Assembly (NCBI GenBank): GCA_946610035.1
Contig: CAMOCC010000007.1
Span: 1 to 58,282 of the forward strand
DNA length: 58,282 nt
Reading direction: 5' to 3'
DNA from: an uncultured Verrucomicrobiota bacterium
Lineage (GTDB): Bacteria > Verrucomicrobiota > Kiritimatiellia > RFP12 > UBA1067
Shown here: piece by piece, positions 13,824 through 50,771 of the stretch
Layout: each line of letters opens with the position of its first letter
How positions within the stretch are numbered: position 1 is the first letter of the stretch
Translations under genes and position numbers: made by a program
Notes under the pieces: generated by a model
Databases searched by the model: none
What the model was told of the DNA's origin: nothing
Seen by the model: the letters and a program-made list of their open reading frames with translations, nothing else

Positions 13824-13907
13824 CAACCTGCGAAATGCGGTCAATCCACCGCGGCCAACCTGGAGTTTACCCATTTTTTGACCGGAGCGAAGGACCCACT
13901 GAGGCAG

Positions 13908-14020
13908 AGGGGGACAGTCCCCGTGGGGGTTTGGAGACGCGGCTTCCAGCCGCGTCAAGTACGCTAAAGTAGTTGCACACCAATCACTCGATTGACGCGG
14001 CTGGAAGCCGCGTCTCCAAA
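13908..14020. repeat. pair of facing REP-like hairpins
   Basis: Two complete hairpins (13936-13956 and 13994-14014) with arms GACGCGGCT and AGCCGCGTC lie in opposite orientation, flanked outward by TTTGGA/TCCAAA. They sit between the divergent lactonase and NfnA promoters. GGGGGACAGTCCCCGTGGGG next to the left copy is itself able to fold. The rest of 13860-14160 shows no gene. Confidence 0.8.
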
Positions 14021-14163
14021 TATTTCGCAACCCGCCTGAACATTGGTTCAAACTGCTCTTTTCAGAAACCAAAGTTGTAAAACAGGGTGAATTGCACCTC
14101 TGATATCGATTTAAATATCCCCTTTTTTAGGGAGATTTTTCCGCCCCAGTCGCGCACATAAAA

Positions 14164-16607: not shown

Positions 16608-16657
16608 GCAAAAGAACAGTCCCCCTGCCTTTCACGACAGGGGGACTGTTCTTTTGC
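16608..16657. terminator. 20-bp perfect inverted repeat downstream of nfnB
   Basis: Arms GCAAAAGAACAGTCCCCCTG (16608-16627) and its exact reverse complement (16638-16657) surround a 10-nt loop. Just before it, 16530-16605 forms a second, imperfect inverted repeat (GAGTCTTGGAG / CTCCAAAGCTCC). The position between nfnB and the convergent purA end suits a bidirectional terminator, but the ACAGTCCCC core recurs in other repeats here, so it may be a repeat element instead. Confidence 0.6.
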
Positions 16658-18888: not shown

Positions 18889-18928
18889 GGCGCTTATCTC
18901 CTAACCTTCGGCAAAACCACCTTCACAA

Positions 18929-18984
18929 TTAACTCCTCACTCCTCACTCTTAACTCTTAACTCTTAACTCCTCACTCTTAACTT
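18929..18984. repeat. heptamer repeat (AACTCYT)n
   Basis: Eight consecutive 7-bp units such as AACTCCT, CACTCTT and AACTCTT fill the gap between the PHP and korBC genes. The TAA stop of korBC (18978-18980) is part of the array. Because 7 is not a multiple of 3, this unit offers stop codons in all frames of both strands. Confidence 0.85.
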
Positions 18985-20384
18985 ACATTCTCCCGCCCTT
19001 CCGCCTTGCGCAGAAGTTCACGGTTCTTCTCTCCGAGTTCCGGTTTCTTCTTGAAGCTCGCGACAAGGGCGGACTCCAGGTTCTCGCCCTTAAGTCCTGT
19101 GCAGTCGAACTTCTTGAGGGCGGCGAGCATCATCGTGTTCGCGGCCTTCGGTACGCCGAACTCCTCCGCCATGCGGATGGCGGGCCAGCGGACGAGCTTC
19201 ACGCCCTCCGGAGGCTGGACGTTGATCGGCACCGTCTCGTCGACGATAATAATGCCGCCCTTCGGGACGTCACCGACGAATCGCTCATAGGCGGGCTGGT
19301 TCATGCAGACGAGGACGTCCGGATGCTCCACGGTCGGAGAGCCGATGGCCGTGCCGGATACGACGACGGAGCAGTTGGCGCTGCCGCCGCGTTGTTCGGG
19401 TCCGTAGCTCGGGAACCACAGCGTGTGGCGCCCCTCAAGGCGCGCGGCCTCGGCGACGGTGAGGCCGAGGGAGAGGACGCCCTGCCCGCCGTATCCGGCG
19501 AACTTGAAGCGCTTCTCGGCGAAATCGGGGTCGTCGACCGCTGCCGGGATGACAGTCTTCTCTGCGAAAAGTTCGGCGCATGTCGCGCACTGGGGAATCG
19601 GACGGACGACGGGCCTCTCGGCGGAGGCGGAGTTGTCGCGGAAGACTCCGAGCGGGAACTCCTTCTCCATCTCCTCTGCGCAGAACTTCGCGGCCTTATC
19701 GGGGGTCATCTTGAAGTTCGTCGGACACGGCGAGAGGATTTCGAGGATGGCGTAGCCCTTCCCGTCCCTCTGTATCTCGAAGACCTTCCTGATAGCCTGC
19801 TTCGCCTGCATGATGCGGCGCGTGTCGGCGACGGAGACGCGGGCGATGTAGACGGGCGCCCTGAGCTGGTTGAAGACCTCGCAGACGTGGAGCGGATAGC
19901 CCGTGAGCGCGGGGTCGCGTCCGAAAGGAGTCGTGGTCGTCTTCTCCCCGTCCAACGTCGTGGGGGCCATCTGCCCGCCCGTCATGCCGTAGAGGGAGTT
20001 GTTGACGAAGATGCACGCGAACTTCTCGCCGCGGCTTGCGGCCTGGAAGGCGTTGTTGAAGCCGATTGCCCCGAGGTCGCCGTCGCCCTGGTAGGCGATC
20101 GTGACGGCGTCCGGGCGCGCGCGCGAGGCCCCCGTCGCAGCCGCGCTGGCGCGTCCGTGCGCGGCGGAGATGTGCGCCGCGTCCCAGTAGTAGTACGTGA
20201 AGACGCCGCAGCCGACGGGGTCGACGTAGATCGTGCGGTCCTGAAGCCCCAGTTCGGCGCAGGCCTCGGCGATCAGCTTGTTGATTATGCCGTGGCCGCA
20301 ACCGGGACAATAGTGTGTGAAACTGACGTTCTTCCCGCTACGCGGAAAGACCTTGTACATGCCCTTCTGTTCAATTGTGCTCAT
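18978..20384 (-). CDS. 2-oxoacid:ferredoxin oxidoreductase, fused beta and gamma subunits
   Basis: A 468-aa fusion. Residues 1 to about 280 are the thiamine-diphosphate-binding beta subunit (KorB/VorB type) with THYCPGCGHG, VDPVGCG, GDGDLGAIGF and NNSLYGMTGGQ. Residues about 290-460 are the gamma subunit, with FAGYGGQGVLSLGL and YGPEQRGGSANC. It would oxidise 2-oxoglutarate or branched 2-oxoacids, reducing ferredoxin. The alpha (pyrimidine-binding) subunit and a ferredoxin subunit are not encoded next to it, so they must be elsewhere. The last codons fall in a heptamer repeat. Subunit fusion is clear; substrate is not. Confidence 0.92.
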   Translation of the reverse strand: MSTIEQKGMYKVFPRSGKNVSFTHYCPGCGHGIINKLIAEACAELGLQDRTIYVDPVGCGVFTYYYWDAAHISAAHGRASAAATGASRARPDAVTIAYQGDGDLGAIGFNNAFQAASRGEKFACIFVNNSLYGMTGGQMAPTTLDGEKTTTTPFGRDPALTGYPLHVCEVFNQLRAPVYIARVSVADTRRIMQAKQAIRKVFEIQRDGKGYAILEILSPCPTNFKMTPDKAAKFCAEEMEKEFPLGVFRDNSASAERPVVRPIPQCATCAELFAEKTVIPAAVDDPDFAEKRFKFAGYGGQGVLSLGLTVAEAARLEGRHTLWFPSYGPEQRGGSANCSVVVSGTAIGSPTVEHPDVLVCMNQPAYERFVGDVPKGGIIIVDETVPINVQPPEGVKLVRWPAIRMAEEFGVPKAANTMMLAALKKFDCTGLKGENLESALVASFKKKPELGEKNRELLRKAEGRENVS

Positions 20385-20469: not shown

Positions 20470-20570
20470 AATGGGAACAGTCCCTATTTCTGAGGGATTA
20501 AATTGTTTGGAGACGCGGCTTCCAGCCGCGTCTCCAAAATCCCGCGGGCACTGCCCCCCTTGCCTCAAAG
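20470..20570. repeat. REP-like hairpin element
   Basis: A complete hairpin (20512-20532, arms GACGCGGCT/AGCCGCGTC, TCC loop) flanked by GGGAACAGTCCC on one side and TCCAAAATCCCGCGGGCACTGCCCCC-like sequence on the other. It lies upstream of the korBC promoter and downstream of the thioredoxin-like gene. The rest of 20385-20589 has no gene. Confidence 0.75.
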
Positions 20571-20589: not shown

Positions 20590-21735
20590 TCATTCTCCCC
20601 CCACTTTGAACGCCAAACCGCTGGAGACGGAATCCAGCCTTGAAGACACGAGGCTAGCATCGCCCTGAACAGCGACGTCCTTGGAGTCGAGGAACTTGTT
20701 CACGCCCGTTCCAAGCTTGGCGAGCTCCGCCTGAAGCTTCTTCACCTCGCCTTCATTCCTGCACCTAAAGTCGTCGGCCCCGTACTTGCGCACCTTGACG
20801 AGCGCCTTGCCCAGGACGTCCGCCGCCTTGTTCCTCTTCAACTGCTTTTCAAAGACGGCGATGTTCCGCCTGGCGGACGGCCAGTATCGGACAAGCTCGT
20901 CGACGTCCGCAAACGCCGACGCGGGGGACTTGTCGAGTTCGCACGCTATCCTGCACTCAAGGTCGCTTCGCGTACGCTCAAGCGCGTCGTACACGAGTTG
21001 TGCTGACTTGGCCTTCTCCTCGTCGTGTCCCTTGATGGCGGCGATGAGCTTCGGGTAGCACTTGTCGAGGGGCTTCCCGGTCGTATACGCCTTCAGGACA
21101 TCCGCAGGGATGGCATCCCTTTCAAGTGTGCCGAAGTAGGGCTTCCATCCCGGCGACTTGGACGCCGCCGTGATGAAGGCGTCCTTCGCCGACTTGTCCG
21201 TCTTCTCGGTGACGGCGCCCTTCCACAGCACTTCGGGGCCGTCTGGACCAACCACGTAGGCGAATACCGGCGCACCTCCGGCGGAAGGTGCGCCAGGAAA
21301 TGTCACGGCGTTGTATACAGGCGGGAACGACTGGTAGTAAATGTCGAAGCACTGCTGGAAATCGGCGTACTTGAGCGTCCTTACAGTCGCAGCGAACTCG
21401 ACGGCGTTCATCTTCCTCCCGGTGTTGACAAGAACGACGATGCAGTCGGACGGCAACTCGTAATCCATCCACGTTATCGAGAACGCCTTGAACATCGGCC
21501 TGGACGAAAGACGCGACAGGACCGTGAACGCCTCGCCGAACTTCTCGGCGTTGAACTCAACGATCATCACGGCCTTGCCGCGGAGGTCGCTCGCACAAAT
21601 CCTCCGTCCCGCGAGGTGGTTCGCGTCCGTCACGTTACGCCAGTCGACAAACCCCGGCGCGACCGGCGTATTCACGCCTGTCGCCATCACCACCCCGGCC
21701 AGCAACGCGGCTGCGGCACACAAAGACATTTTCAT
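20590..21735 (-). CDS. secreted thioredoxin-fold-like protein, unknown function
   Basis: A 381-aa protein with a signal peptide (MKMSLCAAAALLAGVVMATG). Residues about 45-200 look like a degenerate thioredoxin fold: DLRGKAVMIVEFNAE, then YNAVTFPGAPSAGGAPVFAYVVGPDG; the CxxC motif is absent. The second half is helical and charged. GGAGGTGG lies just upstream of the ATG, whose ATGA overlaps the stop of a 23-codon remnant ORF. A hairpin-forming stretch (GGCGCACCT...AGGTGCGCC, 21268-21293) encodes GAPSAGGAPV. I do not recognise a specific family beyond the fold-level resemblance. Confidence 0.75.
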   Translation of the reverse strand: MKMSLCAAAALLAGVVMATGVNTPVAPGFVDWRNVTDANHLAGRRICASDLRGKAVMIVEFNAEKFGEAFTVLSRLSSRPMFKAFSITWMDYELPSDCIVVLVNTGRKMNAVEFAATVRTLKYADFQQCFDIYYQSFPPVYNAVTFPGAPSAGGAPVFAYVVGPDGPEVLWKGAVTEKTDKSAKDAFITAASKSPGWKPYFGTLERDAIPADVLKAYTTGKPLDKCYPKLIAAIKGHDEEKAKSAQLVYDALERTRSDLECRIACELDKSPASAFADVDELVRYWPSARRNIAVFEKQLKRNKAADVLGKALVKVRKYGADDFRCRNEGEVKKLQAELAKLGTGVNKFLDSKDVAVQGDASLVSSRLDSVSSGLAFKVGGE

Positions 21736-21946
21736 TGTCCACCTCCCATTTCCTGAACAGCCGCGGCCGCTGCCGCCACTACGGCGACTATTAAAAACAG
21801 CATCCTAGGCCTACCACCTATGATGCTGCCAAGTCACTATTCCTTGGGATGGCGGCGGCGAAATTCGGCGGCGGCCCAGCGCTTGGCCTCGTCGCCGGAC
21901 ATGCCCTTTGACTCGGCCTCGCGGCGGAGGTCCATGATTTCGGCGC
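21732..21946 (-). pseudogene. duplicated esterase C-terminus plus truncated outer-membrane protein start
   Basis: Bases 21766-21946 match 32509-32689 over 181 bp without indels; I count four mismatches by eye. The segment carries the last codons of the SGNH esterase (..EFRRRHPKE stop) and the first codons of the outer-membrane barrel protein (MLFLIVAVVAAAA). The latter frame runs from ATG 21803 only to TGA 21732, where ATGA overlaps the thioredoxin-like gene start. Both genes are broken here; intact copies lie at 31.7-33.6 kb. Confidence 0.8.
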
Positions 21947-21950
21947 ACTT

Positions 21951-21995
21951 GACGCGGCTGGAAGCCGCGTCTCCAAACCCCACGGGGACTGCCCC
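21951..21995. repeat. REP-like hairpin at a mosaic junction
   Basis: A complete GACGCGGCT/AGCCGCGTC hairpin at 21951-21971, followed by TCCAAACCCCACGGGGACTG. It begins 4 nt after the end of the 181-bp duplicated segment, marking one breakpoint of the gene-end mosaic. Confidence 0.8.
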
Positions 21996-22061
21996 CTATG
22001 TGTTTGCGGCTGCTCCACGTCCTTATTGTGTGGCAGTTCCAAGGGGGCTTCATGCGACTGG

Positions 22062-22130
22062 CTACTCAATCGAAATCGGAACAGAGCCGACCTTCTTGAT
22101 GGTGGCCGTGCCGTATCCGACGCCATCGAC
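22062..22130 (-). pseudogene. C-terminal fragment of an InlB-type giant protein
   Basis: In one minus-strand frame 22130-22062 encodes VDGVGYGTATIKKVGSVPIS and ends IE-stop, nearly the same as the C-terminus of the giant protein at 50772. Only about 23 codons remain. It is fused out of frame to the GH20 remnant upstream. Confidence 0.75.
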
Positions 22131-22282
22131 TTGCTGTACAAATACCCGTCGGCGGGACATGCGCCAGTCTTCCATTCGACCTTCTGCGGAGCCGGCACGA
22201 GCGCCGGTCTTGCGGATTCCGGCGCGGCGACACTTGCCGTCTCCAGTGCAGCCGCCACGGCTGATACGATTAGACGATTCAT
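22131..22282 (-). pseudogene. truncated GH20 N-terminus
   Basis: ATG at 22282 overlaps the GH3 stop (ATGA), so an intact gene was once translationally coupled to GH3. About 50 codons remain: a signal peptide (MNRLIVSAVAAALETASVAA) and a stretch LVPAPQKVEWKTGACPADG typical of the N-terminus of GH20 beta-N-acetylhexosaminidases. The frame then enters the InlB-type fragment out of register. The GH20 assignment rests on this short motif. Confidence 0.6.
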
Positions 22283-24576
22283 TTCAAGCATAGCCTAACT
22301 CCGTTTACAGTCGTCGAATCCCCGCCGACGAAGATCGTGAAGTCACCCGGTTCGACGACGCGGTTGAGATTTGCATCGTAGATAGCGAAGGCGTCGGGAT
22401 GGAGCGTGAAGCGGACCTCCCGCTCCTCGCCAGGCGCGAGCACAACGGACGCGAACTCCTTCAGCTCCCTCTCGCGCGGGAGGACGGATGCCGCCTCGTC
22501 GCGCACGTAGAGCTGGATGATTTCGCGCCCTGAGACGCTCCCCGAATTCCGCACCTTGACGGACACCTCGACATCCTCCCCTACGGACGCCTCGTGCTTG
22601 CCGAGTTCGGGCTTCGCATACTCAAACTTCGTGTAGCTCAAACCGTATCCGAACGGGAAGAGCGGTGTCGAAGGGATGTCCGAATACGAACACGGGATGA
22701 ACGTGCGCTTCTCACGATATGAGAGCGGTATCTGCCCGACGTGCATCGGAATGGCCTGCGCCAACTTCCCTGAAGGGTTGGCCTTTCCGGAAAGGACTTC
22801 CGCAATCGCGTCTCCGCCCATCGCGCCCGGATACCACGCCATGACCACGGCGTCCGAAAGCCAGACGATTTCGTTCATGATGAACGGACGCCCCGCAAGG
22901 ACCACCGAGACGATCTTCTTACCCGCCCGTTTCAGGATGCGGAGGTTCTCAAGCTCCCCTTCCGGCAACTCAAGCGTGGCGCGTCCCTTGCGCTCGCCCG
23001 TGAAGTCCGGCGGCTCGCCGAGGACGAGCACCACGACGTCCGCATCGGGGAGTCCGTTCTCGCCCCTCGCAACGTTGGCGAGCGTGATGGGCTGGTAGCG
23101 GAGGTTGTCGCCCCAACGCCCGGACATCGCGTCCTTCACCGTCTTCGGATCGCCCTTGTGGAAATAGTACGCGCCGCCGTCGGCCTGCACCTCGTTCGGG
23201 TTGTCCTTGAAGAGTCCGCCCCTCAGCGCAACCGCGTCGTCCGCGAACGTACCCGTCAAGCCCACGGGCTCGGACGTCTTGAGCGGCAGGATGCCTCCGT
23301 CGTTCTTCAGAAGGACTAGGCACTCCCTCGTCAGCTCCAGGACATCCCGTTGATTGCGCTCCGAAAAGAGTTCCGCCTTCTCCTTCGCCTCGTCGCAATA
23401 CTTGTAGGGGTTGTCGAAAAGTCCCATGAGGTACTTGAGCGCCAACGACCTTACGACTGCGGCGTCCAGCGCCTTTTCGTCCACCTTCCCCTCGCGGACT
23501 AGCTTCGGCAGGCGGAGGAAGGCGTCGGCGATCATGTCCATGTCGACGCCCGCCTCAAGTCCGCGCTTCGCCGCATCGTCGAGGTCGGTCGCCGCCCCTT
23601 CATCCACGGAGAACTGCAAAGTCGTCCAGTCCGTTATGAGCTGACCTTTGAAGCCTAGTTCGCCGCGCAGAAGGTCCGTCAGCAAATACTTGCTGAAGTT
23701 GCACGGAAGCCCCTCGAAGGCGGTATACGCATTCATGACGGCGAGCGCGCCCGCGTCTATCGCCGCCTTGTGCGGCGGGAGATGCGTTTCGAGCAGTTCG
23801 CGACGCGAGAAGTCCATATGGCGATAGTCGCGTCCGCCCTGGAGCGACGAATAGCCGATGAAGTGCTTGACGCAGGCGATGACGTGCTCGCCGTCCTGAA
23901 GTTCGTCGAGGGTGCGGCCCTGGTCGCCGCGCACGCGCGCGGCGGCTATCCGCCCAGAGAGGTACGGATCCTCGCCGAGCGTCGCGCCGATGCGCCCCCA
24001 GCGAGGATCGTTCGAGACTTCGACCTGCGGTGAATACGTCATCTGAATGCCGATCGCCGCGGCCTCGCGTGCGGCTGCGGCCTCGGCCTTCTCTATTGCC
24101 GCCTCGTCCCAGCTGCACGCCATCGCGAGCTGCAGGGGGAGCGTTGTGGACCACCCGCGCGTGATGTCCTCGTGGATGACGAGCGGAATCCCGAGGCGAG
24201 AATGGGCGAGCTTGTACTCCTGCAGCTCGCGCGCAACACGTGCGCTCCTGACGCGCATGAGCGCGCCGATCTCGTTGCGGTCGACGTGACGCTCGTATAT
24301 CTTCCGCCTGTCGCGTCCGAAGTAGTTGTAGTCGTAGACCATCAGCTCCCCGGCCTTCTCCTCGAGCGTCATGCGCGAGACGAGTTCCCGCGCACGCGCC
24401 TCGGACGTACGAATGGAAAATGGAGAATGCAAAATGGAAAATTGCTGCGGCGTCCCATTTGTCATTCCGGCAACGCGATCACCGCCTGGCAGGGCCCGCT
24501 CGCCGAGCGGGCCGCCGAACGATGCGGCGGAGGACATGGCGACGACAACCGTGAATATCGACAACTTGATCTTCAT
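22279..24576 (-). CDS. GH3 beta-glucosidase/xylosidase-like enzyme
   Basis: Secreted glycoside hydrolase of 765 aa (BglX-like). Signal segment at 1-20; (beta/alpha)8 domain with ACVKHFIGYSSLQGG and the nucleophile Asp in QLITDWTTLQF; alpha/beta sandwich with LVLGEPPDFTGER and AWYPGAMGGDAIAEVL; C-terminal fibronectin-like domain (VSVKVRNSGSVSGRE). Between signal and catalytic domain lie two oddities: a palindrome coding for GERALPG and a 7-bp tandem repeat coding for FSILHSPFSI. AGGAGGTGA overlaps the stop of the upstream gene and best fits the second of two tandem ATGs. It is near the end of a five-gene operon. Substrate not determinable. Confidence 0.93.
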   Translation of the reverse strand: MKIKLSIFTVVVAMSSAASFGGPLGERALPGGDRVAGMTNGTPQQFSILHSPFSIRTSEARARELVSRMTLEEKAGELMVYDYNYFGRDRRKIYERHVDRNEIGALMRVRSARVARELQEYKLAHSRLGIPLVIHEDITRGWSTTLPLQLAMACSWDEAAIEKAEAAAAREAAAIGIQMTYSPQVEVSNDPRWGRIGATLGEDPYLSGRIAAARVRGDQGRTLDELQDGEHVIACVKHFIGYSSLQGGRDYRHMDFSRRELLETHLPPHKAAIDAGALAVMNAYTAFEGLPCNFSKYLLTDLLRGELGFKGQLITDWTTLQFSVDEGAATDLDDAAKRGLEAGVDMDMIADAFLRLPKLVREGKVDEKALDAAVVRSLALKYLMGLFDNPYKYCDEAKEKAELFSERNQRDVLELTRECLVLLKNDGGILPLKTSEPVGLTGTFADDAVALRGGLFKDNPNEVQADGGAYYFHKGDPKTVKDAMSGRWGDNLRYQPITLANVARGENGLPDADVVVLVLGEPPDFTGERKGRATLELPEGELENLRILKRAGKKIVSVVLAGRPFIMNEIVWLSDAVVMAWYPGAMGGDAIAEVLSGKANPSGKLAQAIPMHVGQIPLSYREKRTFIPCSYSDIPSTPLFPFGYGLSYTKFEYAKPELGKHEASVGEDVEVSVKVRNSGSVSGREIIQLYVRDEAASVLPRERELKEFASVVLAPGEEREVRFTLHPDAFAIYDANLNRVVEPGDFTIFVGGDSTTVNGVRLCLK
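24412..24443. repeat. in-frame heptamer repeat inside GH3 gene
   Basis: Units AATGGAA, AATGGAG, AATGCAA, AATGGAA follow one another at the signal-peptide/catalytic-domain boundary of the GH3 gene. This repeat unit has no stop codon in any frame on the coding strand, so it is tolerated within the gene. Confidence 0.85.
24488..24513. repeat. palindromic element inside GH3 gene
   Basis: GGCAGGG followed by a palindrome GGCCCGCTC-GCC-GAGCGGGCC (one shared G). It has the same prefix and layout as two palindromes in the giant gene (51079-51105 and 51386-51411). It encodes GPLGERALPG near the N-terminus of GH3. Confidence 0.7.
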
Positions 24577-24586
24577 CATTCACCTC

Positions 24587-27500
24587 CTATTTCCCGAGCA
24601 GGAACTGACACGTATCGCCTGCTTCGACATTGAGCGGCAGCACGCCGCCCTTCACCGGCTCGACTTTCCCCGTCTTGAGGTTCACGACCGTGCAGTCGAA
24701 CGGCAGACGGAAATCGTACGCGCCGGACCTGAGGCAGTGGACGGAGACGAAGTCGCCGTTCATATCCACCTGCGCGACGTCGGCTTCGAGCGGAACGCAT
24801 GCGCCTGCCTGTCGAGCGAGGAGATTGAATGCGCCCGGCGAAACCCCGCCCGCTTCGGTAAAGACTATCTGTCGCCCCGTCCTCTCATTATCCATTTTGC
24901 ATTTTGCATTTTCCGTTTCCGCGGCCGCCACCGCCCCGTCGTCCGCATAGCGTGCGAGCACCGTCATTCCCGGCTTCTCGATGATTGACGTCCTCGGCCA
25001 GTCGGCCATGTGCGCAGGCGGGAACTCAGCCTCGCCGCAGACGCGGAGCATGTCGTGGTACTGGAGGCCGTTCACCTCCACCGGGAAGCTCCCCTCCGCA
25101 GTGACGACGTGGCTGCCCTTCTTGTCGACATCGAGGGCAATTCCAACGGCTTCCTCGATTCCGCCAAGCTCGCCGCAGCGCGGCATGTGGACGAGCGTCT
25201 TCCCCTTCTTGGCGAGGCCCTTCACGAGGCGGACGCGCTCACGGTCGTATTTTCGCATCAAGCCGAAGACGATCATCTTGTACGGATCGAGCAGCGCTGG
25301 ATTCTCCATGACGTCCTGTGCGAGGTAGATGTCGAACGGAACGCCAGAGCGCGCAAGCAAGAGCAGTTGTGCATTGTAGCTGAATTCAAACGGTCTCTGC
25401 AGGAAGTTCTCGCCGCCCGGCCATCCGAATCCTCCCGCCTCGTCGACGACAATCGCGACGCCCGGCTTCCATGGCGACGGAACGGACGGCGCGGCGCGGC
25501 GGTACGCGGCGAGCGCCGTGCGGATGTCGTCCTTGATCTCCGGCGCCGAGAACCATCCGCCCACCATGTCGTAGAACCACCACCCCGCCCGCTGGGCGAC
25601 CATCGCGCCGGCGTCCTTGCGGAACATCGTCTGCCACATCGGAAGATCGTCCGCACGGCCAAGTCCCTTCGAAGCTGAAGGCGACAAGGTCCAAGGATTG
25701 ATCGCCGCGTAGGTGCGGAAGTCCATCTCCTCGAAGAACAGCTTGCCGTGGAGGTTGAACGAGGCCGTTGGCAGGCGGCTCGCGCCAGGCACCCCGGGGA
25801 TGCGGTTGACGTAGCTCGGCTGCGCGACGAGGATGTCCATCGCGTCGGAGCGAAGGAAGGCTCCGACGTTCCACGATGTCGCGCGACGTCCGCAATGCGG
25901 CGACTCGCACCACATGATGCCGATGACGTCCTTGCCCATGAGTCGCTTGAATTCGCGGACGAATTCCTCCTGCGCCCGCAGTCCCGTCTGCATCGCGAAG
26001 AACTCGTAGTTCGTCGAGGCGTGTCCCGCCTCCTTGAGGAATTCCTTGTACTCCGCCTTGGCGGATTCGGAGTAGTCCGGGAAAGGCAGAGTGAACTGTC
26101 CGTCGTGGTAGCCGAAGGTGTGGATGCCGACAATGCGCTTGTCGAGTCCCTGCGCCTTCAGTTCCGCCACGAGCTCGCGCAGGCACGCCTTCACGCCGTC
26201 GCGCCAGACGCGCGAGGAGTACGAGGGCCAAGTCCAAAGCTTCGCCTTGTCCGCCTCGCTCATGCAGTAGGTCGCAAGGCACGTCCCAGCCGTCCCCTTC
26301 ACGGCCGAGCCGTCCTTCCGGCGCATGGCCTCGGCGGGATGGACGCCGTCGACGAAGTCGCTGTAGGCGTTGCAGCCGACGGCGATGACGAACGGCGTAT
26401 CCGGGCACAGCCGCATCGAATTCTTGATTTCCGCGACCGCCCCCTTTGCGTCGAACCCATCCTTCGTCCAGTAGCCGCGCGTCCCAGGCGCCTTGCCGAG
26501 CCGGATGTCCTTAACGACAAGCGGGATCCCGCTTCCCTGGAGCGTTCCGCCAGCGAACTTCTCCGGCGGCGGAATCTCTTCGCCCGAGGCGTGCGGACCC
26601 TTGTAGGCGACGGGGTTGACTTTCTTCCCGTCGACATAAAGACAGCTTACGCCGTTCTCGCTGACAACCTTCGCCGTGTGCTGTATGTCCTTGGCGAGGC
26701 CGCGATCGTATTCCGCCTCGTCCATGCGCTCCTTCTCGCGCATCTTCGGGGCCGCAGGCTTGATCGACTCGCGCCATGCCTCCGTCTCGGCGCGCATATC
26801 CATCACGACCCATCTCCTCCAGATGCTGACGCTCGCGCCACCGGCGACGACGATTGCCGGGACGACGTATCCGTCCTTGTTCGCGTAGGCGCAATACTTG
26901 CGGTAGGTGCGGCCCTTCGGCGACTCGGGGAGTCCGTGGGACTGCGGGATGCCGCCGCCCGCGAAGTCGCGCTCGAACAGTTCGTCCGGTGCGTATGATT
27001 CGCGCCTGCCGTGCGCACGGACGAATCCGTGGCAGATGTCGCCGTTGGAACTCTCCACCTCAACGTCCGCCGCGAGACGAAGCCATTGATTCGTGGCCGT
27101 CTTGAACGCTGGCCCTTCAACAATGATGTCGCCGCGATCGTTCGTCTTGACGATCTCGATTACGCCGTCCCTGATCCTGACGGACCCGGTCGCGCCGCCC
27201 GTCCGGCGGACCTTGAAGTTCGAATCGTAGCATCCCTCCGAGGCCCACAATACTCCGGCGATGGGGAAATACGGCGCGTTTCGCGCCTCTGTTCCGTCAC
27301 CCCATGCAGCAGTGCGCGGCGTCTTCGCGAAGAGTAGGCATGATTCCGGCTTTCCGGCGCGGTGGACACGTTCGCCGTCCGCCCAGACCGTGAAGCCCGC
27401 GCCCTTCCCGTAGCGGGAACCGTGGCGATCCCAGTAGAAGGAAATCATCTTGTCCCTGAAGCGCACGTTCTCCAACTTGAAATAGTCCCATTCGTCCGGA

Positions 27501-28783
27501 ATTAGCGGCTTGAGCTCAAGCGTTCCGTCGAGCCTTGGCCTCAGCCCGCAAAGTCCCGATATCACGATGTCCGCAAAAGTCGAATGGTTGTAGTCCTCGC
27601 CGCGTTCGACCGTGGCGCCGCGCATCATGAGCATCTCCCGTGAAATCCACACGCCGGAGAAGGGATCGAAGTTCTCGTCCACCCATGGAATTACACGGCC
27701 GTCGGGAGTCCTGCGGACCTGCTGTGCGGCGTACTGGTGGAGGATACGGACGAAGTCGTCCTTCTGCACATCGCCCGAGCTGCCGTCCGCAATTGCGTTT
27801 GCAAGCGCCGTGAGCGCGACGGACGTCGCAAACGGCCAGGAGGGTCCGTTCCACTGGCACGGATGGCCTTGATAGGAAATGACGAAACCAGTTGCGCGGC
27901 GCTCGGGGAAGGTGAGTCCGTACGGCGCCGCGAACCCAGCCTCGTCGTTCAGCTGATTCCAGGCGACGCCGAACGGACCAGGCACAGGTACGCCGAAATA
28001 CCACGGCGCATAGCCGTGGAGCTCGCGCACAGCCTTGCGCTCGCCGGTTGTCGCCACCGTCGTGAAGAACCTGCGTTCGCCGTCCCACAACTTTTCGACG
28101 ATGCCCTTTGCGAGGACGTCCGCCTTCGCCCTGAAGCGTTCGGCGACGTCCTTGCGTCCGATGAAATCCGCAAGTTCCGCTATCGCCTTCGCCTCGCCGT
28201 ACATGGCCGAGTTGAAGAGCGGACGGTATCCGTCGCCGCTCAGGGAGAGTTCGCTGCCCTCGCGGTCGGCGAGCGAGGTGAACATCCCCTTCCCGTCGCC
28301 GCCCATGGGAAAGGCGCCCTTCCCCTCGAAATCGGTGTAGGGAATGGGATGCGATTCCCAGTTGTCAAAATAGGCGATCATCGAGTCGAGGAGCGACGAA
28401 ACCGGCTCGATGTCGCCAGAAACCCTTGCCGCGTCCAAACATCCGCCGACGATCCAGCTGGAATACTTGACGCGGTGCTGCGCGTTTGTCCCGAACCAGA
28501 AACGCGCGTAGTCCATGGCGACTGACTTGTCGTGCATCCACCTCGCCTCGCGCAGGTGGTGCCCCGCGGCGCAGACGATCGTGTTGTACTTCCCCGCCCA
28601 GCCGACCTGCGGCAGGAACTCCGTTATGACCTTGCCATCGGGCGTGTCGACTATGTGCCGCTGAAACGCCCGCCAGCGGTACTCGTATGTCCTGTTGATG
28701 TCGGTGTCGGGGCACTCGAATTTCGGGACGGCATCCGCCGGTGCCGCGGCGAGAACCGCGGCGAACATGAGGTTCGCTATCAT
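24587..28783 (-). CDS. two-catalytic-domain glycoside hydrolase (MGH1/GH63-like + GH42-like)
   Basis: A 1398-aa secreted protein. After a signal peptide (MIANLMFAAVLAAAPADA), residues 20-470 form an (alpha/alpha)6-type domain like the MGH1/GH63 group, with CQWNGPSWPFATSVAL and EDYNHSTFADIVISGL. Residues about 500-730 are beta-rich and LamG-like. From about 755 a TIM barrel follows with FVIAVGCNAYSDFVDG, GIMWCESPHCGRRA, LFFEEMDFRTY, then an amidotransferase-like trimerisation region (GVAIVVDEAGGFGW) as in GH42. A heptamer-repeat insert encodes ENAKCKMDN near residue 1290. The stop overlaps the SD of GH3; the SUMF1-like gene ends 18 nt upstream. Substrate unknown; domain calls are by motif and fold resemblance. 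Confidence 0.82.
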   Translation of the reverse strand: MIANLMFAAVLAAAPADAVPKFECPDTDINRTYEYRWRAFQRHIVDTPDGKVITEFLPQVGWAGKYNTIVCAAGHHLREARWMHDKSVAMDYARFWFGTNAQHRVKYSSWIVGGCLDAARVSGDIEPVSSLLDSMIAYFDNWESHPIPYTDFEGKGAFPMGGDGKGMFTSLADREGSELSLSGDGYRPLFNSAMYGEAKAIAELADFIGRKDVAERFRAKADVLAKGIVEKLWDGERRFFTTVATTGERKAVRELHGYAPWYFGVPVPGPFGVAWNQLNDEAGFAAPYGLTFPERRATGFVISYQGHPCQWNGPSWPFATSVALTALANAIADGSSGDVQKDDFVRILHQYAAQQVRRTPDGRVIPWVDENFDPFSGVWISREMLMMRGATVERGEDYNHSTFADIVISGLCGLRPRLDGTLELKPLIPDEWDYFKLENVRFRDKMISFYWDRHGSRYGKGAGFTVWADGERVHRAGKPESCLLFAKTPRTAAWGDGTEARNAPYFPIAGVLWASEGCYDSNFKVRRTGGATGSVRIRDGVIEIVKTNDRGDIIVEGPAFKTATNQWLRLAADVEVESSNGDICHGFVRAHGRRESYAPDELFERDFAGGGIPQSHGLPESPKGRTYRKYCAYANKDGYVVPAIVVAGGASVSIWRRWVVMDMRAETEAWRESIKPAAPKMREKERMDEAEYDRGLAKDIQHTAKVVSENGVSCLYVDGKKVNPVAYKGPHASGEEIPPPEKFAGGTLQGSGIPLVVKDIRLGKAPGTRGYWTKDGFDAKGAVAEIKNSMRLCPDTPFVIAVGCNAYSDFVDGVHPAEAMRRKDGSAVKGTAGTCLATYCMSEADKAKLWTWPSYSSRVWRDGVKACLRELVAELKAQGLDKRIVGIHTFGYHDGQFTLPFPDYSESAKAEYKEFLKEAGHASTNYEFFAMQTGLRAQEEFVREFKRLMGKDVIGIMWCESPHCGRRATSWNVGAFLRSDAMDILVAQPSYVNRIPGVPGASRLPTASFNLHGKLFFEEMDFRTYAAINPWTLSPSASKGLGRADDLPMWQTMFRKDAGAMVAQRAGWWFYDMVGGWFSAPEIKDDIRTALAAYRRAAPSVPSPWKPGVAIVVDEAGGFGWPGGENFLQRPFEFSYNAQLLLLARSGVPFDIYLAQDVMENPALLDPYKMIVFGLMRKYDRERVRLVKGLAKKGKTLVHMPRCGELGGIEEAVGIALDVDKKGSHVVTAEGSFPVEVNGLQYHDMLRVCGEAEFPPAHMADWPRTSIIEKPGMTVLARYADDGAVAAAETENAKCKMDNERTGRQIVFTEAGGVSPGAFNLLARQAGACVPLEADVAQVDMNGDFVSVHCLRSGAYDFRLPFDCTVVNLKTGKVEPVKGGVLPLNVEAGDTCQFLLGK
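24886..24918. repeat. in-frame heptamer repeat inside the GH fusion gene
   Basis: Units CATTATC, CATTTTG, CATTTTG, CATTTTC interrupt the C-terminal region of the 1398-aa glycoside hydrolase without breaking its frame. Confidence 0.8.
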
Positions 28784-28801: not shown

Positions 28802-30100
28802 TTAATCGGCAGTGAAGGCGAGGCGGAAGCCGAAAGACTTGTCGTTGCCTGCGCTGCCGTTGCGTCCGGCCGAGGTCGTAAAGAAATTGCCGACTCCATA
28901 GTAGCCGCCGCGAATCGCCAATTTCCCGTCCGCGTCCGCCGTCGCAGGACCTGTCGGATCGGTGACCGCCGCCCCGTCGGAATATCCTGGCACACCTGCA
29001 TTCGCGGACCAGTTGTCGCAGCAGGCTTCGTAGACGTTGCCGATCATGTCGTACAAACCATAGGCATTGGGAACCTTGAGGCCAACTTCGTGCGTGTTGC
29101 CTCCAGAGTTGCCCGTCACCCAGCCGATAGCGTCAAGATTGGCGGTAGTGAGATCGAGTCCGGTATACAGTTCGCTCGTAGTGCCAGCACGGCAGGCGAA
29201 CTCCCACTGCGCCTCGGTAGGATAATTGAGAGAGAACGCACCGTTGAAGTTCAATGAGTTTTTTTCGGTTATCACGCGCTGGAAGACCGAGTATTGCGCG
29301 GCACCGACGGGAAGCGTTTCGCCGATTCCGGTAGTACCCTGCTGGACCCAACTGGAATGCGCGAGGCGGCGGTACTGTTCCTGCGTGAGCTCGAAGACGC
29401 CGATGTAGAAGTCCTTCTTCAGCGTGCAACTATGTTCGAACTTTGCGTTGTCACCGAGATTTCCGCCGTTTGCACCCATCGTGAACGTCTTGCCCGCCGC
29501 GGGGATCTTGCGCAGGACGAGCTTCGTCGTCTTCGCGCCGGGGTAGTTCGTCACGCCCGTCCAGATGAGTACGTCGGTGAGCGAAGTCGTGTAGCCGCTC
29601 CCGAGAGCGTTGAAGTCCGTCTCGATGGAACCGTACTTTCCGTTCAGGAGGTCGGCGCGCGTGACGTCCGTCACCGGGAACGGATGGCCGTCAGTGCTGG
29701 GGTCCGTCATGTCGATGATCTTGTAGAGGACTTCGGACGTTGAAGGATCGGCCTCGGTGACCGTCAGCTTCACCTTGAAGTTGGCAAGCGCGACGTGTTC
29801 CTGTCCGAACGCCTTGACGGGATCGATTATGATTTCGCCGATACCGTCCGCTGCGACGCCGTAGAGGTCGCCGCGAATGGACTCCGCGAGGCGCGAGGAG
29901 TCGAGCTGGACGCCGCCGTTGTACGCGGTTACGCCGATGTTGACGGGATGCTGGGGATCGACGCCGGACACCTTGTACTCGACCTTGACGTCGGTCGACC
30001 ACGGCCACTGCTGGCGGACGATCACCTGCTCAAGCGTTGCGTCGGCGCGGGCCGATGCCACTGCAAGAAGTGTAAGCGCGAATACGTTGAACTTGTTCAT
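28802..30100 (-). CDS. secreted SUMF1/FGE-fold protein lacking the active-site Cys
   Basis: A 432-aa exported protein. Signal peptide MNKFNVFALTLLAVASARA, then a beta domain (about 25-200), then a sulfatase-modifying-factor/C-type-lectin-like fold with TFTMGANGGN, VFELTQEQYRRL, YPTEAQWEFACRAGT, NAYGLYDMIGNVYEACCDNW and FGFRLAF. In true formylglycine-generating enzymes a catalytic cysteine follows the RGGSW-like motif; here the region reads IRGGYYGVGNFFTTSAGRNG and has no cysteine. A binding or structural role is therefore more likely than sulfatase maturation. AAGGAAAA precedes the ATG. It is third in the operon behind the sigma factor and anti-sigma-like genes. Confidence 0.85.
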   Translation of the reverse strand: MNKFNVFALTLLAVASARADATLEQVIVRQQWPWSTDVKVEYKVSGVDPQHPVNIGVTAYNGGVQLDSSRLAESIRGDLYGVAADGIGEIIIDPVKAFGQEHVALANFKVKLTVTEADPSTSEVLYKIIDMTDPSTDGHPFPVTDVTRADLLNGKYGSIETDFNALGSGYTTSLTDVLIWTGVTNYPGAKTTKLVLRKIPAAGKTFTMGANGGNLGDNAKFEHSCTLKKDFYIGVFELTQEQYRRLAHSSWVQQGTTGIGETLPVGAAQYSVFQRVITEKNSLNFNGAFSLNYPTEAQWEFACRAGTTSELYTGLDLTTANLDAIGWVTGNSGGNTHEVGLKVPNAYGLYDMIGNVYEACCDNWSANAGVPGYSDGAAVTDPTGPATADADGKLAIRGGYYGVGNFFTTSAGRNGSAGNDKSFGFRLAFTAD

Positions 30101-30136: not shown

Positions 30137-31108
30137 TTACCGGAGGATGACCAGTGTTCCACCGGCCCCTCCCACGAGTTCCGCCGTGTAGTTGATTTCG
30201 TTGGCTATGAGCGAGAGCGACACAGAGCTGCGTCCGGGTATCCTGATGGGATACCATCCCTGTGCGCCGTTCAGACCAGTTGGAGTCTCGGCACCGTTGA
30301 TTGTGAACGAGGTTGTTCCGTACGGTATCGGCAGGACGGCCTTGCCCTTCACCTTCGCCCAGACCTTCCCCTCCGCCGGGGCGATGCATCGCGTGACGCC
30401 CTCGCCGTCCGGCGAGAGCCCCTGGATGAGGCCGAGCTTCGCCCTTCTGACGGTGCTGTCGTCGAATGTGAGGGTGAGGTCGTAGACGTTCTCGGCCTCG
30501 GGGCTTGTAGGTTCCGGGAGCTCGAAGGTGTATGATGCCTCCGTTATGCCGTCATAGGTCCGTGAGTAGCCGAGTCCGACAACCTTCAACGAGGCGGACT
30601 TCGCGCCGGACGGGAAGTCTATCGGCACAGTCATGACGTTGTTCGTCGCCGTGTTCCAGAACGAACTCGTCTCCGGCCTGAGGAAGACGAATGTGGATTC
30701 ACTCATCAGTTCCGCAGCCGGTACCGACACGCTGAGCATGGCCGCGCCCACCAGGCCGGCCGCCTTTCTTGCAATCATTGTATTATCCTCCTCCTTGACG
30801 ATTCTGGTAATCGCCGCCGTCTCGGCGTCGACTGGTTGAGTTTCCTCAGAATCCGAATCTTCGAACACGATCCAAGACGCGAACAAGGCAAGTCCGACCA
30901 TAACAGAAAATCCTGCTGCGATACGCCTCAATCGCTCCGCGCGCCTCCTGCGGGCCTTCGCCCTTGCGACGGGGGCGGCGAGGTAGGCGCGGGCGGAATC
31001 CGCGAACGACGCGGGGGGACGCTTCCAGCCTGCAGGATCGTCGAGCGCGGCCATGAGGCTGAACTCGTCGATCATATCGTCGCTGCTCTGGATGTTGTTC
31101 TCGTTCAC
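30137..31108 (-). CDS. anti-sigma-like membrane protein fused to an exported protein
   Basis: The 323-aa ORF (GTG start, GGGGG upstream) has two parts. Residues 1-112 look like a short anti-sigma factor: acidic N-terminus, an Arg-rich stretch (ARAKARRRRAERLRR), and a single membrane helix (FSVMVGLALFASWIVF). Residue 112 onward opens a second classic signal peptide (MIARKAAGLVGAAMLSVSVPAA) followed by a beta-rich unknown domain. GGAGGAGG sits 8 nt before that internal ATG (30778), so the second part is probably also, or mainly, made on its own as a 214-aa protein. Upstream neighbour is an ECF sigma factor. A lost stop codon between two ancestral genes would explain the fusion. Confidence 0.7.
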   Translation of the reverse strand: MNENNIQSSDDMIDEFSLMAALDDPAGWKRPPASFADSARAYLAAPVARAKARRRRAERLRRIAAGFSVMVGLALFASWIVFEDSDSEETQPVDAETAAITRIVKEEDNTMIARKAAGLVGAAMLSVSVPAAELMSESTFVFLRPETSSFWNTATNNVMTVPIDFPSGAKSASLKVVGLGYSRTYDGITEASYTFELPEPTSPEAENVYDLTLTFDDSTVRRAKLGLIQGLSPDGEGVTRCIAPAEGKVWAKVKGKAVLPIPYGTTSFTINGAETPTGLNGAQGWYPIRIPGRSSVSLSLIANEINYTAELVGGAGGTLVILR

Positions 31109-31126: not shown

Positions 31127-31678
31127 TTACCTTTGATGCTGGCTTGTGTGATATTCTTGGACTAATTTATTCTTAATCGCCTTCCGGGCCTCGTGGAGGC
31201 GGTAGTAGACCGTCCCCTCCGGCGCCCCGAGGCGCTCGGCGATCTCGCCGACGCCCATCCTGTCGAAGTAGAAGAGGACGACCGGGATGCGCAGCGAATC
31301 CGGAAGCGACTCGACGGCCTTGCGTATGCGCGCATGCTCGTCCGCCATCTCGACGCTCTCCGCCGGATTAGGCCTCGCGTCCTCCCCCTCCGTCTGCTCC
31401 TCCGAGAAAACGAGGGAGTTGGCGCCCTTCCTGCGTGCGTCCATCTTCATGAAGTTGATCATGATGGCGCAGAGCCATGTGAAGTACCGCGACTCGCCCT
31501 TGAAGGACGAATTGCGCTCGATAGCCCTGGCCATCGTCCTGAAGGCGAGGTCCTCGGCGTCCGCCTCGTTGAGGCAGAGGCGGTATGCAGTCGCATACAA
31601 GCGCTCGCCGTACTCCGCTAGAAGTGCTCGCGCGCCCTCTTCCGGGTCGTCGGCTATCAATTTGTAAATCTCTGGCAT
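31127..31678 (-). CDS. ECF-type RNA polymerase sigma factor
   Basis: A 183-aa sigma-70 family member. Region 2 spans LYATAYRLCLNEADAEDLAFRTMARAI to YFTWLCAIMINFMKMDARR. Region 4 is VVLFYFDRMGVGEIAERLGAPEGTVYYRLHEARKAIK, a typical helix-turn-helix. AAGGGG lies 6-7 nt before the ATG at 31678, favoured over the GTG at 31684. It heads a compact minus-strand set (anti-sigma-like, SUMF1-like, GH fusion, GH3), so it probably controls this sugar-degradation operon, with the next gene product holding it at the membrane. Confidence 0.93.
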   Translation of the reverse strand: MPEIYKLIADDPEEGARALLAEYGERLYATAYRLCLNEADAEDLAFRTMARAIERNSSFKGESRYFTWLCAIMINFMKMDARRKGANSLVFSEEQTEGEDARPNPAESVEMADEHARIRKAVESLPDSLRIPVVLFYFDRMGVGEIAERLGAPEGTVYYRLHEARKAIKNKLVQEYHTSQHQR

Positions 31679-31718
31679 TTGCACCCCTTGGATGCCATGA
31701 GAAGAAAAATCCTTGGCT

Positions 31719-32546
31719 TTAAAATGAGTATATCACACCTAATGTGTAATATGCAACGTCATTTCGGTATCCTTTCGCCGCATGGTACTTGCCTTGGGCC
31801 CTTGCTTCGTCCATTATCATGTCAAAAGTGTGGATTCCGGCGAAAATACGGCAATTCTCGAAAATCTCGCAGGAAAGCGTCAAATCGGCCCTCAAGTCGG
31901 CGGGGCCTGCGCGGTAGTCGCTTTTGCGCCAGGTGATCCGATGTCCATACCTATTCTGGTTCCATTCCTTGTTCCCGCCCTCCGAGCAAAGTTCCGCCGT
32001 GAGGGACAGCCCCCGTCCCAGGTCGAAGGTGCGGATGAAGCCGGACTTGAAGTACACTCCTTGATACGGACGCTCCCGGTAGTGGACGGCGGCGTAGAAG
32101 TTGACCCACGGCGTCACGAGCGTTTCGCGCGTATACCACTCGAAGGCAGTCTTGTCGTCGACGCCCCTGTACGGGGGCTTCAGGTTGCGGGCGAGGATCC
32201 AGAGTCCGCCGTTCCTGGTCCTGAGCGCCCAGCCGTCCGCCAGCTTGAAGTTGTAGGCATAGGCGACGAGGATGTCGTCCTCCATGAACAGGCGACGGCT
32301 TACGGAGTCGCGGATGGCGGTCAGGGAATGAGTGGGCGCATAGTAGAAGAGTACGTCCCCCCAGTCGCGCCAACCGACGTCCACCTCGAACTCCTGGAAG
32401 AGTATCGGCCTTGCGAACGGAACCTTGCCGCGCGAAACGTTCGCCGAGTAGTATATCGAATCTGCGAAACCGTGCAGTCGCAGACCGTCCGCCCCTTCCG
32501 AGGCCGAAGCCGCTGCCGCCACTACGGCGACTATTAAAAACAGCAT
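31719..32546 (-). CDS. outer-membrane beta-barrel-like protein
   Basis: A 275-aa protein with a signal peptide (MLFLIVAVVAAAASAS) and alternating aromatic strands (FEVDVGWRDWGDVLFYYAP, ILVAYAYNFKLADGWALRT, FYAAVHYRERPYQGVYF). It ends in an aromatic residue (GVIYSF), as outer-membrane barrels do. I do not recognise a named family. The ATG at 32546 is chosen because the duplicated copy at 21.8 kb lacks the upstream ATG (32555). It lies 33 nt behind the SGNH esterase gene and just ahead of the sigma factor, suggesting a role in substrate or product passage across the outer membrane; that is inference. Confidence 0.72.
   Translation of the reverse strand: MLFLIVAVVAAAASASEGADGLRLHGFADSIYYSANVSRGKVPFARPILFQEFEVDVGWRDWGDVLFYYAPTHSLTAIRDSVSRRLFMEDDILVAYAYNFKLADGWALRTRNGGLWILARNLKPPYRGVDDKTAFEWYTRETLVTPWVNFYAAVHYRERPYQGVYFKSGFIRTFDLGRGLSLTAELCSEGGNKEWNQNRYGHRITWRKSDYRAGPADLRADLTLSCEIFENCRIFAGIHTFDMIMDEARAQGKYHAAKGYRNDVAYYTLGVIYSF
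31727..31735 (-). promoter_or_regulatory. possible sigma-factor promoter with dyad
   Basis: Minus-strand TGATATACT resembles an extended -10, 48 nt before the ECF sigma ATG. ACACATTAGGTGT immediately upstream (31735-31747) is an inverted repeat (ACAC..GTGT). The bases also encode the C-terminus of the outer-membrane protein gene, so chance is possible. Confidence 0.35.
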
Positions 32547-32579
32547 CCTAGGCATACCACCTATGATGCCGCCAAGTCG

Positions 32580-33569
32580 CTATTCCTTGGGATGGCGGCG
32601 GCGAAATTCGGCGGCGGCCCAGCGCTTGGCCTCGTCGCCGGACATGCCCTTTGACTCGGCCTCGCGGCGGAGGTCCATGATCTCGGCGCGCCAGTCGCGG
32701 GCGGCCTCGCGGTTCGCGGCGGCCTCGTTGGCGTAGGCGATCTCATCCTTGGTGAAGTCGTCCTTCAGGACCGTCTTGGTGCCGGGTCCGTTGAACCCGA
32801 TGGGCACGAACTTGACCGTGGACGTCTTCTTGAAGAGCTTCGCGACGGGCAGCCTCTGCGCGAAGCACATGTCGACCGCCGCGCGGGCGAAGAAGTCCGC
32901 GCCCGTGTCGCGCGTGTGGCATCCGTCGCCCTTCCCGTTCGGGTGGTTCGCGTATTCGCCCGGCTGGATGCGCATGTAGAGCCTGAACGCCTTGTCGGCC
33001 CCCATCTTCTCGAACTCGCTGCAGGCGTACGCGTTGAGGTCGAGGACTGGTATCTTCATCTCGCCTCCGAGCGTGCGCGTCATGTCCACGTAGGGGCCGA
33101 TCCCCGCCGCGCTGCCGCGCACGTGCGTATTCCCCTCGTCGTCCACCGACACGCCGCCGGAGTGGGGGATCGACGTAGCGAAGATTATCGTCGCCTTTTT
33201 TGCGCGGACGTCCTCGGCGAAGCCCTTCATCAGGGCCTTGTAGTCCTCGGGCGTGGAGTAGCGCTCCTCCTTCGCCCTGTTGGCGTCGTTGTGTCCGAAG
33301 GCGACGATGACGAAGTCGCCGGGCTTGAGCGCGTCGACTATCGACTGCCAGCGACCCTCGGCCTTGTAGCTCTTCGCGCTCCTGCCGCCGATGGCCCAGT
33401 TGTGGAGCTGGTCGGGGTTCTTCATGTACTTCGCGAGGGCCTGTCCCCAGCCCTGCTGGGGGTACTGCCTGTCGGCGTAGTTGCACATTGTCGAGTCGCC
33501 CGCGAGGTAGAGGTCCGCGAACGATGTGACGGCGCAAAGCGCCCCGACTGCAAAAAGGATGCTTTTCAT
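32580..33569 (-). CDS. SGNH-type carbohydrate esterase (rhamnogalacturonan acetylesterase-like, CE12)
   Basis: A 329-aa secreted esterase predicted to remove acetyl groups from pectic polysaccharides. Signal peptide MKSILFAVGALCAVTSFA; block I AGDSTMCNYA with the nucleophile Ser; block II Gly in NWAIGGRSAKSY; block III Asn in VAFGHNDANR; block V GDGCHTRDTG with the Asp-x-x-His pair. After the catalytic domain is a charged helical tail (EAAANREAARDWRAEIMDLRR) of about 70 aa that is unusual. The ATG sits 7 nt after a TATAAT hexamer, implying a leaderless mRNA. The last 29 codons are duplicated at 21.8-21.9 kb. Confidence 0.9.
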   Translation of the reverse strand: MKSILFAVGALCAVTSFADLYLAGDSTMCNYADRQYPQQGWGQALAKYMKNPDQLHNWAIGGRSAKSYKAEGRWQSIVDALKPGDFVIVAFGHNDANRAKEERYSTPEDYKALMKGFAEDVRAKKATIIFATSIPHSGGVSVDDEGNTHVRGSAAGIGPYVDMTRTLGGEMKIPVLDLNAYACSEFEKMGADKAFRLYMRIQPGEYANHPNGKGDGCHTRDTGADFFARAAVDMCFAQRLPVAKLFKKTSTVKFVPIGFNGPGTKTVLKDDFTKDEIAYANEAAANREAARDWRAEIMDLRREAESKGMSGDEAKRWAAAEFRRRHPKE

Positions 33570-46604: not shown

Positions 46605-46687
46605 TTAAGAGTTAGGAGTTGAGAGTTAATAGTTGGGAGTTAAGAGTTAAGAAAACTATCATCCTTCATTTTACATTTTACATTTTA
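46605..46687. repeat. heptamer repeat spacer between truA and mraY
   Basis: Two 7-bp families in a row: GAGTTAA/GAGTTAG/GAGTTGA-like units (46610-46650) and CATTTTA units (46665-46688). They fill the whole gap, and the TAA stop of truA (46685-46687) lies within the second family. Confidence 0.85.
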
Positions 46688-50518: not shown

Positions 50519-50716
50519 GCCACTCACAGGGGGTCCGTCGCTCCGCGACGGACATCGTCGTCGCCGCGCCCCTACACTCCAATCCTCTTCCGACCCTAAC
50601 CGACCCTAATTGACCGTCTCAGCCACTCACAGGGGGTCCGTCGCTCCGCGACGGACATCGTCGTCGCCGCGCCCCTACACTCCAATCCTCTTCCGACCCT
50701 AACCGACCCTAATCGA
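50519..50716. repeat. 103-bp tandem duplication with triloop hairpin
   Basis: Two near-identical copies start at 50519 and 50622. Each carries a hairpin GGTCCGTCGC-TCC-GCGACGGAC, the same arms as at 40284-40306, and CCGACCCTAA decamers. No gene is seen in 50505-50771. Confidence 0.85.
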
Positions 50717-50771
50717 CCCTAATCTGCCTCTATAGGCCCGTCGCTGACCCAGACCTTGACTTCCTCCGACC

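Follow-up and report, generated by a model that had tools for sequence, protein, structure and literature searches.

Layout of the region behind the GH3 gene

The window, meaning the whole stretch of DNA that was analysed (58,282 nucleotides), is contig C7 of a 3.03-Mb MAG in 191 contigs that is 88% complete. On its minus strand it carries a row of sugar-degradation genes, and this row ends, behind a GH3 glycoside hydrolase gene, at a mosaic of gene ends. Read along the minus strand from GH3 onward, the mosaic has a GH20-like gene start, an InlB-type tail, 57 bp of other DNA, a REP-type element and a block that joins the end of an esterase gene to the start of an outer-membrane-protein-like (OMP-like) gene; the gene at 20590-21735 follows. 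The row opens with an esterase gene (32580-33569) and an OMP-like gene (31719-32555). The further features of the row, the mosaic and the adjoining region are:

31127-31684, minus strand: ECF sigma factor, sugar-degradation row
30137-31108, minus strand: 323-aa gene, sugar-degradation row
28802-30100, minus strand: FGE-type gene, sugar-degradation row
24587-28783, minus strand: MGH1-like GH, sugar-degradation row
22279-24579, minus strand: GH3 glycoside hydrolase gene (Pfam PF00933, PF01915, PF14310), with 70-72% orthologues in G004, G014 and G030
22137-22282, minus strand: GH20-like 5' fragment of about 48 codons, unique in the genome
22058-22137, minus strand: orphan 3' end of an InlB/Listeria-Bacteroides-repeat gene, stop codon at 22064-22062
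22001-22057, minus strand: 57-bp stretch with no match in its own genome, relatives, plasmids or phages
21943-22000, minus strand: REP-type element with two hairpins, GGGGGCAGTCCCC and GACGCGGCTTCCAGCCGCGTC, breaking off in the linker AAGTGCGCC
21766-21946, minus strand: copied block of an esterase 3' end (last 32 codons), an intergenic hairpin and an OMP 5' end
21798-21828, minus strand: terminator-like hairpin followed by TTTTTAAT, within the copied block
20590-21735, minus strand: gene for a secreted protein of 381 aa, next after the mosaic, with its own RBS GGAGGTGG
20504-20540, no strand assigned: second REP palindrome, downstream of gene 20590-21735, which thus has REPs on both sides

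The gene ends and the REP hairpin named in the original prediction are all present on the minus strand in the order it gave, and it was right to see in them a rearrangement product built of gene ends. Two amendments are needed: the esterase end and the OMP start are a single continuous block, and the 57 bp are extra. A plasmid or phage origin was rejected, neither search having given a match.

Gene 20590-21735 has its own ATG and a GGAGG site, and the copied block stops about 30 bp short of this ATG. Relatives of its protein occur in 18 of 58 genomes, and for the relatives within the genus no other window gene was found in the surrounding stretch that was fetched. Three related Kiritimatiellae, G004, G014 and G030, have GH3 orthologues (about 71%) with other genes behind them and without the mosaic, but the genes that follow differ and no exact empty site was found; none of the relatives holds the assembled mosaic. 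Judged by the GH3 protein, the nearest named relatives (71-72%) are gut or rumen MAGs labelled Kiritimatiellae or Verrucomicrobia, so that the genome is most likely a gut Kiritimatiellae MAG. An ancestral arrangement with the esterase beside IorA (POR/TPP-type, 18978-20384), one that would expose an empty site, was also considered and set aside; G020 alone shows these neighbours, and there their order differs.

Origins of the pieces

The GH20-like start is coupled to GH3 much as predicted, the expected 50 or so codons being about 48. Its ATG at 22282 overlaps the GH3 stop codon as ATGA, and the frame runs to about 22137 through a signal-peptide-like stretch and then a VPAPQKVEW motif. The GH20 assignment is the weakest call made here: the frame matches the N-terminal part of a GH20 protein of 508 aa in G006 with 38% identity (E = 0.007), and a Pfam search of the frame gave no match. 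In the searched part of the genome this start has no intact counterpart, and it is the sole mosaic piece that resembles a true truncation, of a gene that probably lost its body. That a GH20 body formerly stood at the site and has since been lost is plausible, because G004 keeps a full GH20 gene two genes downstream of GH3, but not proven. A GH20 gene directly after GH3 was not confirmed in the relatives: the two are separated in G004, and in G014 and G030 GH3 is followed by other genes.

The InlB-type tail (22131-22063) and the esterase/OMP block have intact counterparts in the same window:

50772-58280, minus strand: intact InlB-type giant protein gene (Flg_new and LRR_5), whose C-terminus matches the orphan tail
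32580-33569, minus strand: intact SGNH/GDSL esterase gene (Pfam PF13472), source of the copied 3' end, with a 70% orthologue in G009
31719-32555, minus strand: small outer-membrane-like gene, intact, from which the copied 5' end was taken, with a 72% orthologue in G030

The tail comprises the last 23 codons of such a gene, in another frame than the GH20-like piece. With the final 69 coding nucleotides of the 2502-aa ORF at 50772-58280, an ORF that contains Listeria-Bacteroides repeats (Flg_new) and BspA-type LRRs, it shares 90% identity, and in all it matches three longer genes, at C7:50773-50841, C54:13908-13976 and C86:297-363, with 90-91% identity (blastn E = 4e-20 to 8e-20, beyond chance). 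A second orphan InlB 3' end lies at C18:10115-10232, where the last 26 nt and about 90 nt of downstream DNA are 89% identical; it directly adjoins a REP composite of the same REP type as that in the mosaic. REP sites may therefore be recurrent junction points, and in this weak form the suggestion of a site where junction fragments collect can be kept. The broader proposal, that REP-like elements in this Kiritimatiellae lineage mark sites which recurrently capture copies of gene termini and, in a process still under way, build new 3' regions with ready-made terminators for the operons beside them, we regard as highly doubtful. Another match concerns the giant genes themselves: the end of the InlB-type gene and the DNA downstream of it are 99% identical between 50560-51000 of the window and C54:13696-14135. 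This match across two contigs reads as a duplication or conversion event of recent date among the genes for giant surface proteins.

The block at 21766-21946 matches 32509-32689, at the intact esterase/OMP junction 10.7 kb upstream of the mosaic, with 4 differences in 181 bp (97.8% identity; blastn gives 95% identity across 198 bp with E = 1e-85, again beyond chance). Are these the remnants of two genes or one copied piece? The block is continuous and copied from one junction, so two separate esterase and OMP remnants were rejected, and the 4 differences mark it as a resident paralogous piece. The esterase C-terminus is conserved in the G009 orthologue, which argues that the direction of copying was from 32.6 kb to 21.9 kb. 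In G030 the orthologue of the OMP-like gene sits between the MGH1-like GH and GH3. Integration of a circle, or an event of Campbell type, was considered and rejected, since of the two copies one has its native flanks on both sides and the other on neither. The other comparable duplications inside the window are only REP copies, InlB paralogues and a single tandem repeat of 105 bp.

The copied block includes the hairpin at 21798-21828, which folds at -21.3 kcal/mol (z = -4.1 against shuffles); the source copy has -25.1 kcal/mol (z = -3.9). A stricter consensus terminator scan did not report the hairpin at 21798-21828. This candidate hairpin with its U-tract could, as a secondary effect of the rearrangement, end GH3 transcription. 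At the source locus, a strong hairpin with a U-tract (32540-32580, z = -3.9) lies just after the esterase stop codon and overlaps the OMP-like start region, and is a candidate terminator or translational control element.

The REP element and other repeats

The REP family of the mosaic has more than 100 blastn matches in the 3.03-Mb genome, and its core has 93 matches in the fetched loci, both strands of the palindrome being counted. It is a short imperfect extragenic palindrome in high copy that forms, at many loci, opposed pairs with a defined spacing (H2-linker-H2'), of which the mosaic keeps the left half only. GTAG is found within the linker and CGTC within the stem, and neither is a clear unpaired tag. 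On present evidence the REP counts as a component of the mosaic and not as its cause.

Elsewhere, at 13899-14025 of the window and in loci L061-L080, the REP composite consists of a GGGGACAGTCCCC hairpin, a GACGCGGCTTCCAGCCGCGTC hairpin, a linker AAGTGCGCTAAAGTAGTCGC...CACTCGATT and an inverted second hairpin. Such composites cluster, often at contig ends. A literature search on REPs in Kiritimatiellae found nothing, and the composite is possibly an undescribed REPIN-like family of this group.

Other repeats are also present. A second palindromic repeat family, GTCCGTCGCGGAGCGACGGACCCCCTGT, occurs at 50630-50720 of the window and at about 40 sites in the genome. The gene for adenylosuccinate synthetase has on its 3' side a long near-perfect palindrome, AAAAGAACAGTCCCCCTG...CAGGGGGACTGTTCTTTT (16608-16657), which belongs to another palindromic family with the motif CAGTCCCC in common. 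Irregular short tandem repeats of AACTCTTAACTC/AACTCCTAACTC lie between genes at 18915-18985 and 46605-46652 of the window and at L061:9040-9114.

Formation of the mosaic and comparison with known systems

Microhomology was measured at the join between the REP and the esterase piece, the only join for which both parents are known. This join falls inside the REP linker at AAGTGCGCC and has an overlap of 4-5 nt, GCGC[C]. Among random joins of window DNA, an overlap of at least 5 nt was seen in 0.75% and of at least 4 nt in 2.2%. The overlap suits microhomology-guided joining or template switching, and the inserted esterase/OMP block and InlB tail are both copies of DNA that is still present elsewhere. 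We consider it likely that the mosaic is a lineage-specific scar, left next to a REP by template switching or by joining at microhomology.

The order of events that we infer, with its enzymology and the former presence of a GH20 body, would run as follows. A GH20-like gene behind GH3 would have been broken after about 48 codons, and the gap filled from elsewhere in the genome with the InlB 3' end, further DNA together with the REP, and the 181-bp esterase/OMP copy. The joins would have been made at a few shared bases, whether by microhomology-mediated joining, by replication template switching, or by tandem duplication and then deletion; in this last case the 10.7-kb block would have been duplicated in tandem, with REP/esterase as the junction, and the loss of its second copy by deletion would produce an identical scar. 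The REP may have acted as a fragile or pausing site, and the one observation that points this way is the second orphan InlB tail, adjoining a REP composite on C18.

Could the assembly of the MAG have joined unrelated contigs through REPs or other short repeats? Repeats evidently disturb this assembly, many of its 191 contigs ending in REP clusters. The REP/esterase join, however, shares 4-5 nt, far under any assembly k-mer, and the esterase source has no REP, so that a k-mer misjoin cannot make this join; the InlB tail is likewise joined without a long shared repeat. An artefact would be marked by shared sequence of k-mer length at the joins and by identical copies, whereas between the copied block and its source 4 of 181 sites differ. 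We consider a chimeric assembly improbable.

Serial deletion at the mosaic site of a former row GH3-GH20-InlB-esterase-OMP, the explanation given in the original prediction, also fares poorly. The pieces do share one orientation, and the GH20 piece is without an intact copy in the genome. But the esterase/OMP block is near-identical to an intact junction nearby, the InlB tail has intact close copies, and such a gene row is found in no relative. The idea that gene bodies were deleted thus fits the GH20 start and finds no support in the esterase/OMP and InlB pieces, which are copies with intact sources; as an account of the whole mosaic it is unlikely. Duplication in tandem with a later deletion would unite this idea with that of copying, and it forms part of the preferred explanation.

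It is very unlikely that a process driven by the REPs, such as RAYT-type transposition or REP recombination, captured adjacent gene ends and moved them. There is a REP in the mosaic and another beyond the next gene, the second orphan InlB tail adjoins a REP, and the genome has two Y1_Tnp (TnpA/RAYT-like) hits, but the REP core is absent from the fetched flanks of both hits, one of which contains a stop codon. REP-REP recombination was rejected as the origin of the esterase piece, there being no REP at the source. Selection of the mosaic, either as a regulatory 3' region of the GH operon with terminator or mRNA-stabilising hairpins or as a new chimeric secreted ORF of 157 aa, is extremely improbable: the hairpin and U-tract fold better than shuffles, a G-to-A change in the stem keeps the pairing, and ORF 21818-22291 is open across all the pieces and coupled to GH3, but the terminator scan does not list the hairpin, long open frames are common in this window of 61% GC (175 ORFs of at least 100 aa), and the 157-aa frame, for which Pfam gave no match, does not keep the reading frames of the InlB and esterase pieces.

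The scar left by joining or template switching, which remains our preferred reading, is real but fairly ordinary, a product of repair or rearrangement of a known general kind and not a new genetic system. The mosaic alone is a single site in a single genome. If real, it illustrates cleanly and on a small scale how an intergenic region can be assembled from copied gene ends, the source being known and the join measurable, and it means that not every gene fragment in a MAG has to be an assembly error or a remnant of deletion.

How does the region compare with known systems? GTAG repeats have been reported in the PVC superphylum and are highly enriched in O. terrae (PMC3733652). The REP of the mosaic resembles the GTAG- and CGTC-tagged REP/BIME families (PMC3733652) in being short, palindromic and extragenic, in having more than 100 genomic matches and in often occurring as opposed pairs and clusters. 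It differs from them in that CGTC is in a paired stem and is not an unpaired tag, in having the second hairpin GGGGACAGTCCCC, and in that no RAYT gene was found beside the REP core. The mosaic is also like the remnant of a tandem duplication, the direct copies at 21766-21946 and 32509-32689 bracketing the OMP-sigma factor-FGE-GH-GH3 block; unlike such a remnant, it is accompanied by no second copy of the 10.7-kb block in the window, and a simple insertion of 181 bp is therefore equally possible. The remaining comparison is with microhomology or template-switch (templated-insertion) junctions, on which a literature search returned almost only eukaryotic papers. As in those junctions, short copies of distant DNA stand at a break, the source is intact and 4-5 nt are shared, a likeness that extends as far as the one junction here at which both parents are known.
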